From Flavobacteriaceae bacterium GF1 (GTDB taxonomy: Bacteria; Bacteroidota; Bacteroidia; Flavobacteriales; Flavobacteriaceae): DNA of 64,000 nt. The stretch spans positions 496,001 to 560,000 of the forward strand of contig WNKP01000001.1 in NCBI GenBank assembly GCA_009797885.1, written 5' to 3'. The position numbers were made by a program, and so were the translations under genes. Shown here piece by piece: positions 27,192 through 37,354 of this stretch. The notes below the pieces were generated by a model, which worked only from the letters and a program-made list of their open reading frames with translations, was not told the origin of the DNA and did no database searches. Each line of letters starts with the position of its first letter. The first letter of the stretch is position 1.

Positions 27192-27425
27192 TTACTTTGC
27201 TTCTTCTATATAGCTTATAGCCTGACCTACTGTTGCAATGTTTTCAGCTTGGTCGTCTGGAATCTGAATATCGAATTCCTTTTCAAACTCCATTATCAAC
27301 TCAACAGTATCCAAGGAATCGGCACCTAAATCGTTGGTAAAACTTGCTTCAGGTACTACCTCATTCTCATCAACACCCAATTTATCAACGATAATGGCCT
27401 TTACTCTTGATGCAATGTCTGACAT
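27192..27425 (-). CDS. acpP: Acyl carrier protein
   Basis: A 77-residue acyl carrier protein, carrying growing fatty acids on a phosphopantetheine arm. The attachment site is Ser37 in [15 protein letters not shown]. The protein is acidic, four-helical and of standard length. It is first in the acpP-fabF-rnc cluster and divergent from purN. An element matching TAnnTTTG on the minus strand (27456-27463) lies about 30 bases before the start. Confidence 0.98.
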
Positions 27426-27463: not shown

Positions 27464-27535
27464 AAAAACTTTGGATCAAATACACCATTTGTCGATAAAA
27501 TGTGCTGTAAATTACGGTCTTAACGGCCATCCGAT

Positions 27536-27543
27536 TACTTTTG
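27536..27543 (+). promoter_or_regulatory. Promoter -7 element for purN
   Basis: TACTTTTG matches TAnnTTTG, 21 bases before the purN ATG. No -33 TTTG is seen at the expected distance. Confidence 0.4.
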
Positions 27544-27564
27544 CGACCTACCAATTCGTATGAA

Positions 27565-28137
27565 ATGAAGGAAATTGTCCTGTTTGCCTCGGGTTCGGGT
27601 TCCAATGTGGAAAACATTGTGCAGTACTTTAAGAACAATGCTGGTATTAAGGTTGCTTGCATACTTACCAACAATACGGAAGCGCATGTTATTGAACGGT
27701 CTAAACGACTGGAAATTCCCCTATTGTACTTTAACCGCGCTGCTTTTTCCAGGTCCAATACCGTTCTTAACGTATTGAAATCCCTAAAACCGGACTTGAT
27801 TGTGTTGGCCGGGTTCCTCTGGAAAATCCCAAAAGACCTGGTCACTGCATTTCCGGATAAAATCATCAACATACACCCTGCCCTATTGCCCAAATACGGA
27901 GGAAAGGGAATGTATGGGTCCAATGTGCACAAGGCAGTTAAGGAAAATAGGGAGAAAGAAACCGGAATCACCATCCACTATGTGAACGAGCACTATGACG
28001 AGGGCGCCATTATCTTTCAGGAAAGGACAGTGTTGAGCGAAGAAGACAGCTTTGAGGCCATTGCCCAAAAAGTCCATACTTTGGAATATGAACATTTTCC
28101 AAAAGTGATAGAAAAACTGTTATTGAAAAATGGCTAA
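27565..28137 (+). CDS. purN: Phosphoribosylglycinamide formyltransferase
   Basis: A 190-residue GAR transformylase, adding a formyl group from 10-formyl-THF in purine synthesis. Visible features are the N-terminal FASGSGSNVENI, the catalytic Asn-His pair in INIHPALLPKYGGKGMYG, and the catalytic Asp region in HYVNEHYDEGAIIF. I start at ATG 27565 (MKEIVLFASG), not at the in-frame TTG at 27541 that lies in the promoter element. The rnhA-like gene begins 8 bases before the purN stop, so both are on one transcript, divergent from acpP. Confidence 0.95.
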   Translation: MKEIVLFASGSGSNVENIVQYFKNNAGIKVACILTNNTEAHVIERSKRLEIPLLYFNRAAFSRSNTVLNVLKSLKPDLIVLAGFLWKIPKDLVTAFPDKIINIHPALLPKYGGKGMYGSNVHKAVKENREKETGITIHYVNEHYDEGAIIFQERTVLSEEDSFEAIAQKVHTLEYEHFPKVIEKLLLKNG

Positions 28138-31372: not shown

Positions 31373-32383
31373 ATGTCCATTTCAAAAAAGGAACTTGTTT
31401 TTCAATTGGTGCTCTTGGTCATAGTTTTCCTGTTTTACTCATTTGACAGTGAAGAGCCGGGGTTCCAGTGGTACAATGTGGCGTTTTTTTTGACCTATGC
31501 CCTAGCCGCGGCCGTAATAGGGTTTTGGTTAATGCCCCGTTTTTTATATCCTAAAAAATACTGGCACTTTTTTGGTTATGTGGCCGTGGTCATCACCATC
31601 ATCATCTTACTGGAAGAATTGGTGTTGGAACAAATTTTCTTTGCGGGCACCAAACGGGCACAAGGGTTTCCCGGAGTATTTTATTCACTTTTGGATGTAC
31701 TCCCGATCATTACTATTCTCTGCGGTTTTAAGTTTGGGTGGGATGCCTTACAAAAACAACAACAGATAGAAGCCTTAAAAAGTAGCGTTCAGGAAAGCGA
31801 GCTTCAATTTCTAAGATCGCAGATCAATCCCCACTTTTTGTTCAACAATCTCAACAACCTATATTCTTACGCATTGGAAGGTTCCCACAAAACCCCCGAA
31901 ATCATCTTGGAGCTGAGTGGATTATTGCGCTACATGCTCTATGAATGCAAAGAAAGGTTCGTTCCGCTTGAAAAGGAGATCGACCAGCTACATAACTTTA
32001 TTAAGTTGAACAAGTTACAGATTGAAAACAGGGGCCATGTGGTGTTCGATATACAGGACATTGGAAATGGGTACAGGATTGCCCCTTTGATCTTGATTGT
32101 GTTCATTGAAAATGCATTTAAGCACAGTCAAGCTGGGCAGACCGAGAATATTGAGATTGCCGTGGGCATAAAAATGAAAGGGAATGTACTGCTTTTTAAC
32201 TGCACCAATAACTATGCCCCCGCTCAGGAACTTGAGGCGGTTACTACCGGAATTGGACTCAAAAATGTTCAAAAACGGTTACACTTGCTCTATCCGGAAA
32301 AGCACCATCTCCAGATTAAAGAAGACCGCAACAGGTACCAAGTTCGTTTGTCCATCGCCTTGGAAAAAAACCACGGTTCATGA
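31373..32383 (+). CDS. LytS-type sensor histidine kinase
   Basis: A 336-residue membrane histidine kinase of the His_kinase (LytS/YehU) class. Four hydrophobic segments occupy about residues 9-120, a coiled coil 125-150, then the phospho-acceptor His154 in INPHFLFNNLNNLYSYAL. The N-box is VFIENAFKHS and the glycine-containing ATP region is GIGLKNVQKRLHLLYP. It overlaps the response-regulator gene by four bases (ATGA). No extra sensor domain is present, so the signal is probably sensed in or near the membrane. Confidence 0.92.
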   Translation: MSISKKELVFQLVLLVIVFLFYSFDSEEPGFQWYNVAFFLTYALAAAVIGFWLMPRFLYPKKYWHFFGYVAVVITIIILLEELVLEQIFFAGTKRAQGFPGVFYSLLDVLPIITILCGFKFGWDALQKQQQIEALKSSVQESELQFLRSQINPHFLFNNLNNLYSYALEGSHKTPEIILELSGLLRYMLYECKERFVPLEKEIDQLHNFIKLNKLQIENRGHVVFDIQDIGNGYRIAPLILIVFIENAFKHSQAGQTENIEIAVGIKMKGNVLLFNCTNNYAPAQELEAVTTGIGLKNVQKRLHLLYPEKHHLQIKEDRNRYQVRLSIALEKNHGS

Positions 32384-33084
32384 ACTGTATTATTGTAGAA
32401 GATCAACCACCAGCGCAGCGCATCCTAAAAAAATATATTGGGGAAATGGGCTCATTATCATTAAAGGCAACTTTTTCGGATGCCATACGGGCTATGGAAT
32501 ATTTAAAAACCGAACCTGTGGACATTGTCTTTCTGGACATTCACCTGCCCAAACTTTCGGGTATGGATTTCCTGAAAACCGTTCCCAATCCACCCAGTAT
32601 CATCTTGACCACTGCCTTTTCTGAATATGCTTTGGAGAGTTATGAATTTAACGTTGTGGATTATCTTCTAAAGCCTTTTTCCTTTCAACGTTTTGTCAAG
32701 GCGGTTTCAAAAGTATCGCAACGCAATGTAGTTTTACCTCCTGAACATAAAGAAATTGACGACCCCCCATCCAAAACGGAGATTTACATTAAGTCGGGCT
32801 ATGCGCATATAAAAATTGCCATAGATGATATTTATCACATCAGTTCGGATTCGGATTATACCGAAATCATAACGGCCAACAAGAAATATATCTCAAGCGA
32901 GCCGCTCCGCTCATGGACGGAGACCCTCCCAAAGAACAGGTTTTATCGTATTCATAGATCACATATCGTCAATCTAAAAAAAATCGAGAAGATAGTAGGC
33001 AACCAAGTATGCTTACCGGGGGGACAAAAATTACCCATAGGCCGTGCCTATAAAGATGGTTTTTTGGGACGTGTCCTTAAATAG
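32380..33084 (+). CDS. LytTR family response regulator
   Basis: A 234-residue response regulator. The receiver domain has Asp53 as phospho-acceptor (VFLDIHLPKLSGMDF), an acidic pocket in VEDQ and Lys in LLKPFSF. A C-terminal LytTR DNA-binding domain follows (about 130-230: HIKIAIDDIYHISSDSDYTE, then YRIHRSHIVNLKKIEKI). It is translated from a start overlapping the kinase stop. Likely targets are the receptor gene and its own operon, through the inverted repeat at 31225-31314; that is inference from position. Confidence 0.93.
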   Translation: MNCIIVEDQPPAQRILKKYIGEMGSLSLKATFSDAIRAMEYLKTEPVDIVFLDIHLPKLSGMDFLKTVPNPPSIILTTAFSEYALESYEFNVVDYLLKPFSFQRFVKAVSKVSQRNVVLPPEHKEIDDPPSKTEIYIKSGYAHIKIAIDDIYHISSDSDYTEIITANKKYISSEPLRSWTETLPKNRFYRIHRSHIVNLKKIEKIVGNQVCLPGGQKLPIGRAYKDGFLGRVLK

Positions 33085-34199: not shown

Positions 34200-36098
34200 A
34201 TGAGTGATCCAATAAAACACGAATGCGGCATCTCATTGATCCGCCTGTTGAAACCGCTGGAATACTACAAGGAAAAGTACGGCACTGCGTTTTACGGAGT
34301 GAACAAAATGTACTTAATGATGGAAAAGCAGCACAATCGGGGTCAGGATGGTGCAGGCTTTGCCAGTATTAAGTTGGATATGGCCCCTGGGGAGCGATAC
34401 ATAAGCCGTGTGCGATCTATAGCACAACAGCCCATACAGGATATTTTTAAGCAGATCAATGACCGAATAAATGCTACCATCTCGCAAAATCCACAGTATT
34501 GGGACAATGTCGCCTTACAGAAAAAAGAAATCCCCTATGTTGGTGAACTGCTCCTAGGACACGTTCGCTATGGTACTTTTGGCAAGAACAGTATAGAGAG
34601 TGTCCATCCCTTTCTTCGTCAAAACAATTGGATGCACCGCAACCTGATTGTAGCGGGCAATTTTAACATGACCAATGTTGATGAGCTCTTCGGAAATTTG
34701 GTGGATTTGGGACAACATCCCAAGGAAATGGCAGATACCATTACGGTTATGGAAAAGATCGGGCATTTTTTGGATGATGCCGTGGCCAAACTATACAAGG
34801 AAATCAAAAAGGAAGGGTTCAATAAAAAAGAAGCTTCGCCCCATATCGCAGAACGGCTGAACATTGCCAAAATTCTGAAAAAATCCTCCAAAAACTGGGA
34901 TGGCGGTTACACCATGGGCGGGATGATGGGTCATGGTGATGCCTTTATGCTAAGGGATCCTTCGGGAATCCGTCCTTGTTATCATTATCAAGATGATGAA
35001 GTTGTTGTGGTAGCATCGGAACGGCCGGCCATACAGACCGTTTTCAATGTAAAATATGAAGATGTCAAAGAATTGGAGCCCGGTCATGCCCTGATCATTA
35101 AAAAAAATGGAACCGTCAATATCCAAGAAGTGCTGCCGCCCAAAGAACGAAAAGCCTGTTCCTTTGAACGTATCTATTTTTCCAGGGGAAGTGATAAGGA
35201 GATCTACAGGGAACGCAAACTTTTGGGCAAACTGGTATTTCCCGAAATCTTAAAAGCCATTGATGGTGATTTGGCCAATACCGTCTTTTCCTATATTCCC
35301 AATACGGCAGAGACATCCTTTATGGGAATGATCAAAGAGGCACAGAACTATTTGAATAGAAAAAAGGAGGACCAAATCTTAAAACTGGGTGCCAATATCA
35401 CCAAGGAAGAACTGCACAAAATTCTGGATGTTAGGCCAAGAATAGAGAAAGTGGCCATCAAAGATGCCAAACTACGCACTTTTATAACTCAGGATAGCAG
35501 TCGGGACGATTTGGTCACCCATGTCTATGATATCTCTTATGGTTCCGTAAAACCAACGGATAATTTGGTCATCATCGATGACAGTATCGTCCGGGGAACC
35601 ACTTTGAACAAAAGTATTTTGAGGATGTTGGATCGTCTCAACCCCAAGAAAATTGTTGTCGTTTCCTCCGCTCCCCAGATTCGATATCCGGATTGTTACG
35701 GCATTGACATGGCAAAATTAGAGGACTTTGTTGCCTTTAGGGCTGCTTTGGCCCTGCACAAGGATAGGGGCACCAGCGAGGCCATCCATCAAATCTACCA
35801 AAAGTGCAAGGCACAGGTGCAGCATAAGGACGCTCAAGTACACAATTATGTACAAGAGCTTTACGAACCATTTACGGCACAGGAGATATCCGATAAGATT
35901 TCGGAGATATTAAGTCCAAAGGAAATCAATGCCGAGGTTAAAATTATATACCAAACCATAGAAAGCCTGCATAAGGCCTGTCCCAAAAATCTTGGTGATT
36001 GGTACTTTACCGGGAACTATCCAACCCCAGGCGGAAATAGGGTGGTCAACCGTGCCTTCATCAACTTTTTTGAGGGAAAGAATCAACGCGCCTACTAA
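34200..36098 (+). CDS. PurF-like amidophosphoribosyltransferase, long form
   Basis: A 632-residue class II glutamine amidotransferase fused to a phosphoribosyltransferase domain. The N-terminal nucleophile is Cys9 in HECGISLIR, so eight residues would be removed by self-processing. The glutaminase domain covers about 9-290. The PRPP-binding loop VIIDDSIVRGTTL is near residue 460. It is about 120 residues longer than typical PurF, with extra segments near residue 70 and after the PRPP loop. Bacteroidota often carry this long form, sometimes beside a normal PurF. First-step purine synthesis (PRPP to phosphoribosylamine) is likely but not certain for this paralogue. Confidence 0.85.
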   Translation: MSDPIKHECGISLIRLLKPLEYYKEKYGTAFYGVNKMYLMMEKQHNRGQDGAGFASIKLDMAPGERYISRVRSIAQQPIQDIFKQINDRINATISQNPQYWDNVALQKKEIPYVGELLLGHVRYGTFGKNSIESVHPFLRQNNWMHRNLIVAGNFNMTNVDELFGNLVDLGQHPKEMADTITVMEKIGHFLDDAVAKLYKEIKKEGFNKKEASPHIAERLNIAKILKKSSKNWDGGYTMGGMMGHGDAFMLRDPSGIRPCYHYQDDEVVVVASERPAIQTVFNVKYEDVKELEPGHALIIKKNGTVNIQEVLPPKERKACSFERIYFSRGSDKEIYRERKLLGKLVFPEILKAIDGDLANTVFSYIPNTAETSFMGMIKEAQNYLNRKKEDQILKLGANITKEELHKILDVRPRIEKVAIKDAKLRTFITQDSSRDDLVTHVYDISYGSVKPTDNLVIIDDSIVRGTTLNKSILRMLDRLNPKKIVVVSSAPQIRYPDCYGIDMAKLEDFVAFRAALALHKDRGTSEAIHQIYQKCKAQVQHKDAQVHNYVQELYEPFTAQEISDKISEILSPKEINAEVKIIYQTIESLHKACPKNLGDWYFTGNYPTPGGNRVVNRAFINFFEGKNQRAY

Positions 36099-36194
36099 AC
36101 AGTTTATCGTTCATAAAGTGTATTTTGTCGATGAAAATGACCCTTCACCGTCTTTTTGGCAATGAGTTCTTACGTCCCTATAAATTAGCTATTG

Positions 36195-36268
36195 CCATAG
36201 CATAAGTAGGTTAAGTTCATGGTAAGATTTGGGGCAAAAAAGGTGGAGATATCTCCACCTTTTTTATT
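36195..36268 (+). ncRNA. Candidate small RNA, copy 1 of 3
   Basis: Conserved block 36195-36234 starts CCATAGCATAAGTAGG and ends GATTTGGGG. CCAT (36195-36198) can pair with ATGG (36219-36222); the stem can extend by one G-U and one A-U pair. The loop of 20 bases is almost identical in all copies. An intrinsic terminator follows: A-run, perfect palindrome GGTGGAGAT/ATCTCCACC (36242-36259), then TTTTTT. A TTTG at 36155-36158 is followed about 20 bases later by TATAAAT, a weak promoter. Strand is set by the terminator. No coding capacity is evident. Confidence 0.7.
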
Positions 36269-36374
36269 TTATGTCATCCCAACTTCAAGCTTTGTGATCC
36301 TTTTCCTAACCTTTTATAGTCCATTGTTTTCCTTATGGTATTTCAACCAAATAAAATGGCTTTCGTCTAAAAGC

Positions 36375-36406
36375 TTTCCCTCGGAAAAACCCTTGGCCTA
36401 CATTTG
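36375..36406 (+). promoter_or_regulatory. Promoter of small-RNA copy 2
   Basis: TTTC (36375-36378), then 20 bases, then TACATTTG (36399-36406), a full match to TAnnTTTG. The conserved RNA block starts six bases later, so transcription would begin at or near its first base. Confidence 0.6.
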
Positions 36407-36411
36407 GGGAA

Positions 36412-36482
36412 CCATAGCATAAGTAGGTTAAGTTCATGGTAAGATTTGGGGAAGAAGGCGGAGTAACATCCGCCTTCTTTAT
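36412..36482 (+). ncRNA. Candidate small RNA, copy 2 of 3
   Basis: The same block as copy 1 (36412-36451) with no change in its first 38 bases. In front of it the base is A instead of G, so the closing pair is A-U where copies 1 and 3 have G-U, a change that keeps the stem. The terminator stem is AAGAAGGCGGA / TCCGCCTTCTT (36452-36479), unrelated in sequence to copy 1 although the shape is kept. The promoter with TACATTTG is immediately upstream. This is the best-supported unit of the array. Confidence 0.75.
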
Positions 36483-36594
36483 GTTTGACTCCCAAGGGAT
36501 TATGTTAAAATTGTCGTTTTAGCAAATCACAAATCCATCAAAAATTTCTTCGAATTTCTTTGTTATTTCCCACAATACCAGTAATTTAGTTTTG

Positions 36595-36667
36595 CCATAG
36601 CATAAGTAGGTTAAGTTTATGGTAAGATTTGGGACGAAAAGGGCAGGAGCTTTCCTGCCCTTTTCTA
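36595..36667 (+). ncRNA. Candidate small RNA, copy 3 of 3
   Basis: The block at 36595-36633 differs from copy 1 by a single C-to-T change in the loop (TTTATGG instead of TTCATGG). The terminator stem is AAAAGGGCAGGA / TCCTGCCCTTTT with loop GCTT (36637-36664). TAGTTTTG (36587-36594), a full TAnnTTTG match, abuts the block. A TTTG at 36559-36562 is 24 bases further up, longer than usual. The unit is separated from the convergent superoxide dismutase gene by that gene's own terminator. Confidence 0.72.
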
Positions 36668-36692
36668 TTGTCCAAATATCGTTGTCCCAAAT

Positions 36693-36745: not shown

Positions 36746-37354
36746 CTACTTGTTTTGCTCGTAGTTCTCTGCCACCTTGTCCCAATTGATCACATTAAAA
36801 AATGCCGTAACATAATCCGGTCTTCTATTCTGATAGTTCAGATAATAGGCATGTTCCCAAACATCCAGTCCCAAAATGGGATGTCCATCACAGGAAACCC
36901 CCGGCATCAACGGATTATCTTGGTTTGGTGTGGAGCAAATTTCCAACTTTCCCCCTTTGTGTACACACAACCATGCCCATCCGGATCCAAAACGGGTACC
37001 CGCAGCCGCACTGAATTGCTCTTTGAAGGCATCAAAGGAACCAAATGATTCATTTATGGCATCCGCCAAATCACCTGATGGGGCGCCTCCACCATCTGGA
37101 GACATTACTTCCCAAAAAAGATTGTGGTTATAATATCCCCCACCATTATTTCGTACGGCACCATTGGTCATGTCCATACCCGTAAGAATATCCGTTATGG
37201 ATTTGTTCTCCAAATCCGTTCCTTCAATTGCACCGTTCAACTTGGTGGTATATCCATTGTGGTGCTTGGTATGGTGAATTTCCATGGTCCTAGCATCAAT
37301 ATGTGGTTCCAATGCATCATAGGCATAGGGTAAATTAGGTAGTTCAAAAGCCAT
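36746..37354 (-). CDS. sodA: Superoxide dismutase, Mn/Fe family (Mn-like)
   Basis: A 202-residue superoxide dismutase, converting superoxide to peroxide and oxygen. Metal ligands are His27 (EIHHTKHH), His77 (YYNHNLFW), Asp164 and His168 (LDVWEHAYY). Gly73 together with Gln145 in NQDNPLM matches the manganese type; the iron type normally carries the active-site Gln at the first position. A cambialistic enzyme is possible. There is no signal peptide, so it is cytoplasmic. It converges on the small-RNA array and is divergent from the AddA-like gene. Confidence 0.94.

Follow-up and report, generated by a model that had tools for sequence, protein, structure and literature searches.

Small RNAs (sRNAs) that occur as tandem siblings are known from the LhrC, Qrr and csRNA systems. 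Their copies are nearly identical and possess a common seed, and some of them are controlled by a two-component system; these RNAs belong to other phyla than the one considered here and have other sequences and other chaperones. In CsrB and RsmZ, RNAs are known which sequester an RNA-binding protein. The regulator RgaR, which occurs below in connection with an sRNA gene of Clostridioides difficile, is of the LytTR type. Flavobacteriaceae are important polymer degraders in the sea and in fresh water, and small-RNA regulation in this family is little mapped.

Within the Bacteroidota, the FopS sRNAs of Bacteroides are described to repress the translation of susC by pairing beside the start codon, and they give bands of about 65 and 70 nt (PMC11697453). 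Rfp18 of Flavobacterium psychrophilum is likewise a flavobacterial sRNA; compared by its description only, it is set apart from the RNAs studied here by a third stem-loop, and PMC9723704 describes this sRNA as conserved in the genus. The same source gives TAnnTTTG at positions -12 to -5 as the sigma-A consensus. LytTR sites are described as two direct repeats of 9–11 nt with a spacer of 11–13 nt upstream of the promoter, and YpdB, a LytTR response regulator of E. coli, binds a direct repeat of GGCATTTCAT (PMC4847170). The sRNA gene spoZ of C. difficile carries VirR-like repeats for RgaR with a key G at -72 and -51 (PMC10602386, in whose main text the word LytTR is absent).

Architecture of the array

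The window, which is the whole 64-kb stretch of DNA that was analysed, contains three tandem units between a purF-like and a sod-like gene (Table 1). The preliminary description had claimed three copies of a nearly invariant 39-base block, and this was confirmed by three matches on the plus strand (36196–36233, 36413–36450 and 36596–36633) in comparison to none in 100 shuffles. In the own genome, just these three copies were found at a convincing score by BLAST and by a covariance model. The single change which had been noted within the block of copy 3 is a C to T exchange; additionally, GGGA replaces GGGG directly after the block of this copy. In copy 2, the pair ahead of CCAT has indeed changed from G-U to A-U, and an intrinsic terminator after each copy was recovered, as all three units fold with a terminator hairpin. 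Comparison of related units also agreed with the earlier statement that the spacers have diverged and the block has been kept. The predicted RNA length is about 70–75 nt across the family.

Table 1. Positions of the features discussed in the text; coordinates refer to the window unless a locus is named.
Feature	Position	Strand	Remarks
LytTR-domain response regulator gene	32380..33084	+	PF00072 and PF04397; about 3 kb upstream of the array
Upstream syntenic neighbour	34200..36098	+	purF-like amidophosphoribosyltransferase; best NCBIfam match under the model's cut-off
LytTR-like direct repeat, unit 1	36099..36131	+	half-sites 36099–36110 and 36120–36131, 21 bp apart
Promoter -7 box, unit 1	36181..36188	+	TAAATTAG, imperfect, 5/6 matches
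Unit 1	36194..36268	+	predicted sRNA of about 72–75 nt, C-type; block 36194–36234, terminator stem 36236–36265
LytTR-like direct repeat, unit 2	36338..36369	+	half-sites 36338–36349 and 36358–36369, 20 bp apart
Promoter -7 box, unit 2	36399..36406	+	TACATTTG, full match
Unit 2	36411..36486	+	predicted sRNA, C-type; block 36411–36451, terminator stem about 36451–36480
Separate conserved element, unit 3	36563..36589	+	TTATTTnnCACAATACCAGTAnTTTAG (CACAATACCAGTA element)
Promoter -7 box, unit 3	36582..36589	+	TAATTTAG, 5/6 matches
Unit 3	36594..36670	+	predicted sRNA, U-type (GUUUAUGG), sod-proximal; terminator stem 36636–36665
Downstream convergent neighbour	36746..37354	-	superoxide dismutase-like (sod)
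uxaB antisense site	L310:1501–1518		own genome, contig C1; ORF from L310:1514

Distribution of the RNA family

None of the Rfam families reached its gathering score at the units, and a tRNA was the sole pass in the window. Flavo-1, which had been considered as a possible identity, stayed below the Rfam threshold at the units, and this idea was given up. Weak matches to STnc40, sraA and FopS were rejected because their score is owed largely to the terminator.

A BLAST search with unit 2 detected similar units in 27 of the 60 related genomes searched, and each of these 27 belongs to the Flavobacteriaceae. The covariance search across this family which had been proposed was carried out with a model built from 43 units; it matched 202 of 249 sampled Flavobacteriaceae genomes with 1–7 copies each (178 of the 210 good genomes; 192 of 235 genera positive). 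When the order (196 genomes) and the class (295 genomes) were sampled, every strong match lay within the Flavobacteriaceae. Outside this family, 34 weak matches from 32 genomes were obtained (9 and 25 in the two samples; E 0.002–0.1). Of these, 27 were compared to the block, and 26 sit 10–15 edits away from it, as does random DNA (control mostly 11–15 edits, with 1 of 200 windows at 8). The remaining one (L304:1501–1566), at 8 edits, was rejected, since it appears to lie antisense to the start of a gene. One match at 10 edits (L302:1501–1538) is likewise probably due to chance, and this probably applies to the weak outside matches altogether, these two included.

A scan of genome contigs with an exact 24-base pattern yielded at least 118 loci; the invariance of those columns is therefore partly given by construction, and divergent forms of the block came from the covariance-model searches. 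The titles of the listed loci name Maribacter, Zobellia, Winogradskyella, Aquimarina, Salegentibacter, Flavobacterium and others, and the remaining ones are unclassified Flavobacteriia or Bacteroidota assemblies. Among the matches listed, the 118 loci hold 243 units, which together with the three of the window gives 246; the units lie on a single strand within each locus, with one to six per sequence. Some loci share a genome or species (e.g. L081/L163, L111/L160 and L068/L093), and a larger set of 384 units includes extra loci, some of which probably stem from the same organisms as other loci; relatedness of the loci inflates all conservation counts given here. With regard to mobile spread, the exact 24-base pattern was absent from viral contigs (0 matches), phages and plasmids.

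Most arrays share their neighbours. Among the matches listed, purF is located upstream on the same strand in 102 of 118 loci, and 93 have sod on the other strand downstream of the units; both genes are present in 81, at least one in 114, and neither in four (L060, L069, L095 and L122). Several loci are cut by the locus end. Copies off the purF-sod interval (e.g. in L060, L032 and L095) possess a promoter and a terminator of the same kind, which indicates that the unit moves as a whole gene. L060 and L032 have a common neighbour, a protein starting with MKKSLKTIF, and thus represent a second locus in some genera.

From sequence comparison, the units appear to constitute an unlisted RNA family, which is carried by most of the Flavobacteriaceae sampled and as a rule occupies the interval between one particular pair of genes. 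The RNA family is new; tandem sibling sRNAs as such are already known. A literature search, mostly without subscription papers, revealed no published report of this RNA. A transcript may already be contained in the 85 new sRNAs of F. psychrophilum (PMC9723704); the main text of that paper mentions neither purF nor sod.

Promoters and terminators

A full TAnnTTTG element had been proposed directly before the block in copies 2 and 3. This is correct for copy 2 (TACATTTG). For copy 3, the box touching the block (TAGTTTTG) was a wrong assignment, and the comparison of 384 units places the promoter at TAATTTAG. In this set, 375 units possess at least five of six TAnnTTTG matches upstream of the block, in comparison to 74 of 384 in a control stretch of equal length, and in 361 of 384 units a box with 4/6 or better is located 11–13 nt ahead of the block. 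Column statistics of 246 units likewise showed TAnnTTTG at a fixed distance, and the expected +1 position, with which the block begins and which directly precedes CCATA, is a purine (A 63%, G 34%; both among the matches listed). A terminator-like hairpin followed by a T run is present in 243 of 244 units among the matches listed.

As judged from the sequence, each unit thus has its own putative promoter and its own terminator, as is typical of intergenic sRNAs. The spacing of the promoter box, the terminators and the diverging spacers strongly support the view of the preliminary description that the copies are independent transcription units. A dispersed DNA repeat without terminators, which would have spoken against this view, was checked for and excluded.

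Upstream elements of the two copy types

Upstream of the promoters, 205 units could be scored (246 minus 3 at locus ends and 38 with a separate element, see below). An operator model consisting of two copies of one 12-nt half-site with free spacing of 15–26 bp converged on GcatTTcAtC.A. Among the matches listed, 198 of 205 units lie above the 99th percentile of a shuffled-trained model, and, measured from start to start, the half-sites are 20 bp apart in 171 units and 21 bp apart in 23, whereas the spacing in shuffles is flat. The mean score was 19.4 bits versus 5.3 bits for shuffled-trained models; shuffling was by single bases and many loci are related, so these numbers describe strength and not probability. 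The repeat is mostly found at about -73/-53, with the start of the distal half-site mostly at -73 to -75. If score and spacing are combined, 191 of 205 units are positive among the matches listed (first copies 63/63, middle copies 60/63, single copies 45/53, last copies 23/26). Unit 1 of the window has a weaker third half-site near 36142.

The repeat resembles the YpdB site, which comprises GGCATTTCAT twice in the yhjX promoter (PMC4847170). The oligonucleotide used there has 21 bp from start to start, whereas 20 bp is usual here, and the YpdB operator drives yhjX, whereas the repeat described here precedes sRNAs. Half-sites of about 10 nt at a distance of 20–21 bp occur in 194 of 205 units among the matches listed, and the resulting spacer of 10 nt (171 units) or 11 nt (23 units) lies just below or at the quoted range for LytTR sites. 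With spoZ, the units share an sRNA promoter with direct repeats and a geometry like -72/-51; SpoZ is activated by RgaR and is unrelated in sequence and phylum (PMC10602386). Most examined copies carry a promoter switch which resembles a site for a regulator driven by a sensor, and motif and geometry lead us to infer that a LytTR regulator may bind the repeats.

A LytTR-domain response regulator is encoded close to the array (Table 1). Synteny of its gene was seen at 0 of the 42 other loci whose upstream DNA extends far enough, and genomes of this kind commonly carry LytTR genes; therefore, it is not named here as the regulator. A regulon scan of 864 kb of the own genome (two 400-kb runs and the window) showed that repeat pairs at 20–21 bp are hardly more common than pairs at other spacings, so the operator alone cannot list the regulon. 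One further repeat in the window (27472–27503, minus strand, 21.5 bits, 20 bp) lies just upstream of acpP (27192–27425, minus strand) near a TATTTTTG box, with a purN-like gene on its other side (27541–28137, plus strand; gene names read from translations); it is either a possible member of the array's regulon or a chance match. Of all operator pairs in these 864 kb, the one with the highest score (27.0 bits; L219:13703–13734, contig C22 of the own genome) is located directly upstream of TATATTTG and of a gene for a 324-aa protein with a signal-peptide-like start.

The copies fall into two types according to one base in GUUyAUGG. Among the matches listed, 62 loci hold more than one copy, which together with the window gives 63 multi-copy arrays. 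In 50 of these, the copy at the sod-proximal end carries U and every copy ahead of it C; shuffled placement of C and U gave a mean of 9.9 and a maximum of 19 arrays, and relatedness of the loci inflates the observed count. By clade, the pattern was seen in 36 of 39 AAG arrays and in 14 of 24 AG arrays among the matches listed. In the AAG clade, the last copy has its own invariant upstream element, TTATTTnnCACAATACCAGTAnTTTAG (logo of 37 copies among the matches listed). A core of the ATACCAGTA type, as detected with a looser pattern, is present in 38 scorable units among the matches listed, unit 3 of the window included; only one of these is not a last copy, and none passes the direct-repeat threshold. 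Within the 864 kb examined of the own genome, the next best match to TTATTTnnCACAATACCAGTAnTTTAG differs from it at 6 of 24 positions. Taken from the sequences, this distribution points to a last copy that is old and has been kept separately.

Predicted secondary structure

In the fold predicted for each unit of the window, a hairpin at the 5' end is joined by a short linker to the terminator hairpin (z-scores -4.2, -4.8 and -3.9 for units 1, 2 and 3); none of 200 shuffles folds as well. The fold of CCAT with ATGG proposed earlier is correct insofar as a 5' hairpin exists. The stem is longer, and once its inner pairs are formed, about 5 nt remain in the loop instead of 20 bases. All 33 distinct block variants fold into a hairpin with GTAGG in the loop region; the poorest-folding variant is that of L106, in which the register is shifted. 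The 5' arm varies, and the near-invariant part comprises the loop, the 3' arm and the linker (AGUAGGUUAAGUUyAUGGUA(a)GAUUUGGGG).

In a mutation test of 23 of the 33 variants, the mean folding energy was -5.84 kcal/mol versus -3.92 ± 0.45 kcal/mol with equal numbers of random changes (0 of 200 as low), with a null model that ignores relatedness. Double-sided, compensatory pair changes were found in 0 of 11 pairs in A1 and in 1 of 11 in A2, so the case for the hairpin is carried by the mutation test. Comparison of the variants thus shows that a predicted 5' hairpin is maintained across the family. After the stem, one base is gained or lost in the block (GGTAAGATTT versus GGTAGATTT; GTAGATTT versus GTAAGATTT). 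This alters the frame in any reading and argues against a coding role; a sense or antisense peptide was ruled out on this ground.

Proposed function of the RNAs

Unit anatomy, the predicted 5' hairpin, the near-invariant loop, arm and linker, the purF-sod synteny, the C/U difference and, for most copies, the direct-repeat operator are conserved, as shown by sequence comparison. On this basis, we consider it rather probable that the units encode tandem trans-acting sRNAs of about 72 nt which possess their own sigma-A-type promoters, are induced by a LytTR system and pair at translation starts. Each RNA would be transcribed from its own promoter, and the two repeats, whose centres lie near -68 and -48, would be the binding site of a LytTR-family response regulator. 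The C-type copies would be activated together and yield a pulse of sRNA amplified by gene dosage. In the Maribacter-Allomuricauda clade, a different regulator would drive the U-type copy, which is the sod-proximal one. The RNAs would then base-pair via the AUGGUAGAUUUGGGG segment, the loop or both at mRNA translation starts, and they would act without Hfq or an RRM protein. Pairing via AUGGUAGAUUUGGGG is proposed because this segment is the invariant part, is similar to the seed with which FopS covers the start codon, and would be complementary to starts of the ACCAUGAA type. The C/U base would face the G of the start codon, and the choice between a C-G and a U-G pair could tune two classes of RNA.

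A more far-reaching and quite tentative view is that the array is a core RNA regulator of Flavobacteriaceae, in which a LytTR system might fire a syntenic, dosage-scaled array independent of Hfq and RRM proteins, with two classes distinguished by one base and the second class separately regulated in one large clade. A near-invariant array in about four of five sampled genomes, together with a readable operator, offers a concrete entry point into the questions which LytTR system fires it and what it controls. It also raises the question how such sRNAs work without a detected Hfq or RRM protein, and the split of the paralogs by one base is a ready test of sRNA specificity.

Search for partner proteins and targets

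The search for partner proteins covered the Hfq and RRM_1 families. Hfq (PF17209), which the host of an Hfq-dependent sRNA should encode, was found in 0 of 60 genomes, the own genome included, with 5 of 14 controls positive. RRM_1 (PF00076) was detected in 0 of 37 Flavobacteriaceae in comparison to 6 of 23 other genomes, and the Bacteroides control genome was positive; a partner of the RbpB type was thus not found.

A search for targets had been suggested, and none of the searches made here yielded a conserved one. At 676 translation starts, taken from 864 kb of the own genome, pairing was not clearly enriched. Antisense 7- to 10-mers at starts showed a weak surplus that was often matched by shuffled blocks (for 9-mers 10 versus 6.9 ± 3.0, with 37 of 200 shuffles as high), and the duplex energies were barely lower. 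Near-complement sites in the own genome were no more frequent than those of the reversed patterns (7 versus 44 and 11 versus 12), the units accounting for three of each. Four non-unit sites resemble CTTAACCTACTTATG, none of them at a start, and eight resemble CCCAAATCTTACCATGAA, one of them at a start, that of uxaB.

This site covers the start codon of uxaB (tagaturonate reductase) and is the best antisense site of the own genome (2 mismatches in 18 positions, -29.7 kcal/mol). It was compared at 23 uxaB loci (the own one and 22 others from 20 genomes; no start was available for L332) and is not conserved, the longest exact complement being 7 nt at 21 other uxaB starts. It is therefore kept as a lead that is possibly species-specific or due to chance. 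No strong site was seen at SusC starts in the duplex listing or by inspection. The neighbouring genes were rejected as targets: 596 starts at the 118 listed loci gave one match, two overlapping 10-mers in L105, and this looks like an internal start of purF.

Alternative explanations

Near-invariance over about 30 nt exceeds what a pairing seed needs, and this counts against base pairing. Because the invariant stretch is long, protein binding is the strongest rival: the hairpin loop and linker might sequester an RNA-binding protein, with additional copies raising the dose. The invariance of the GTAGG loop, the 3' arm and the linker would then be explained, as would the lack of a conserved antisense site. 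Larger genomes tend to hold more copies (Spearman 0.49 across the 202 genomes with matches), which fits a dose effect for base pairing as well as for protein binding. We regard titration of a protein as rather unlikely, since neither Hfq nor an RRM protein was found among the two families searched, each RNA offers one site instead of many, and the position-locked single base favours two specificities.

It is improbable that the units form a flavobacterial branch of the Bacteroides FopS/GibS family (RF04319/RF04182), even if FopS is their nearest relative in size, host phylum and seed. Both groups occur in Bacteroidota and are short, terminator-ended and multicopy, with a conserved 5' part containing UUCAUGGUA, and FopS also has a seed that covers the start codon (PMC11697453). 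In addition, UUCAUGGUA..AGAUUU stands in register with the 5' seed of FopS (22.0 bits, E 0.11). Membership fails on score, structure and partner protein. The 22.0 bits, reached by copy 1 only and with a contribution of the terminator, compare to a gathering score of 56; the 5' part of FopS is described as single-stranded (PMC11697453), whereas a hairpin is predicted here and kept in the variants; and an RbpB-type partner is absent, as RRM_1 occurred in none of the 37 Flavobacteriaceae. The units studied here also differ in lying mostly in one syntenic tandem array. The best FopS match in the own genome (L046:1501–1552) was rejected as a copy and speaks against membership as well, since its sequence appears to be antisense to the beginning of a gene. 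This suggests, as a side aspect, that FopS itself resembles the antisense of a common start region of Bacteroidota.

That the units are no sRNAs at all, being a terminator or attenuator array, a DNA repeat or a small coding gene, is very improbable: their neighbours are indeed convergent, and some of the terminators, being near-perfect inverted repeats, could act in both directions, but the spacing of promoter and operator is fixed, copies at other places retain promoter and terminator, and the gain or loss of one base in the block shifts any frame.

Among the divergent members of the family, the units of L276–L278 have altered stems (ACCAGAAAATTAG... and ACCATAATTTAG...) and still fold round AGTAGGT.
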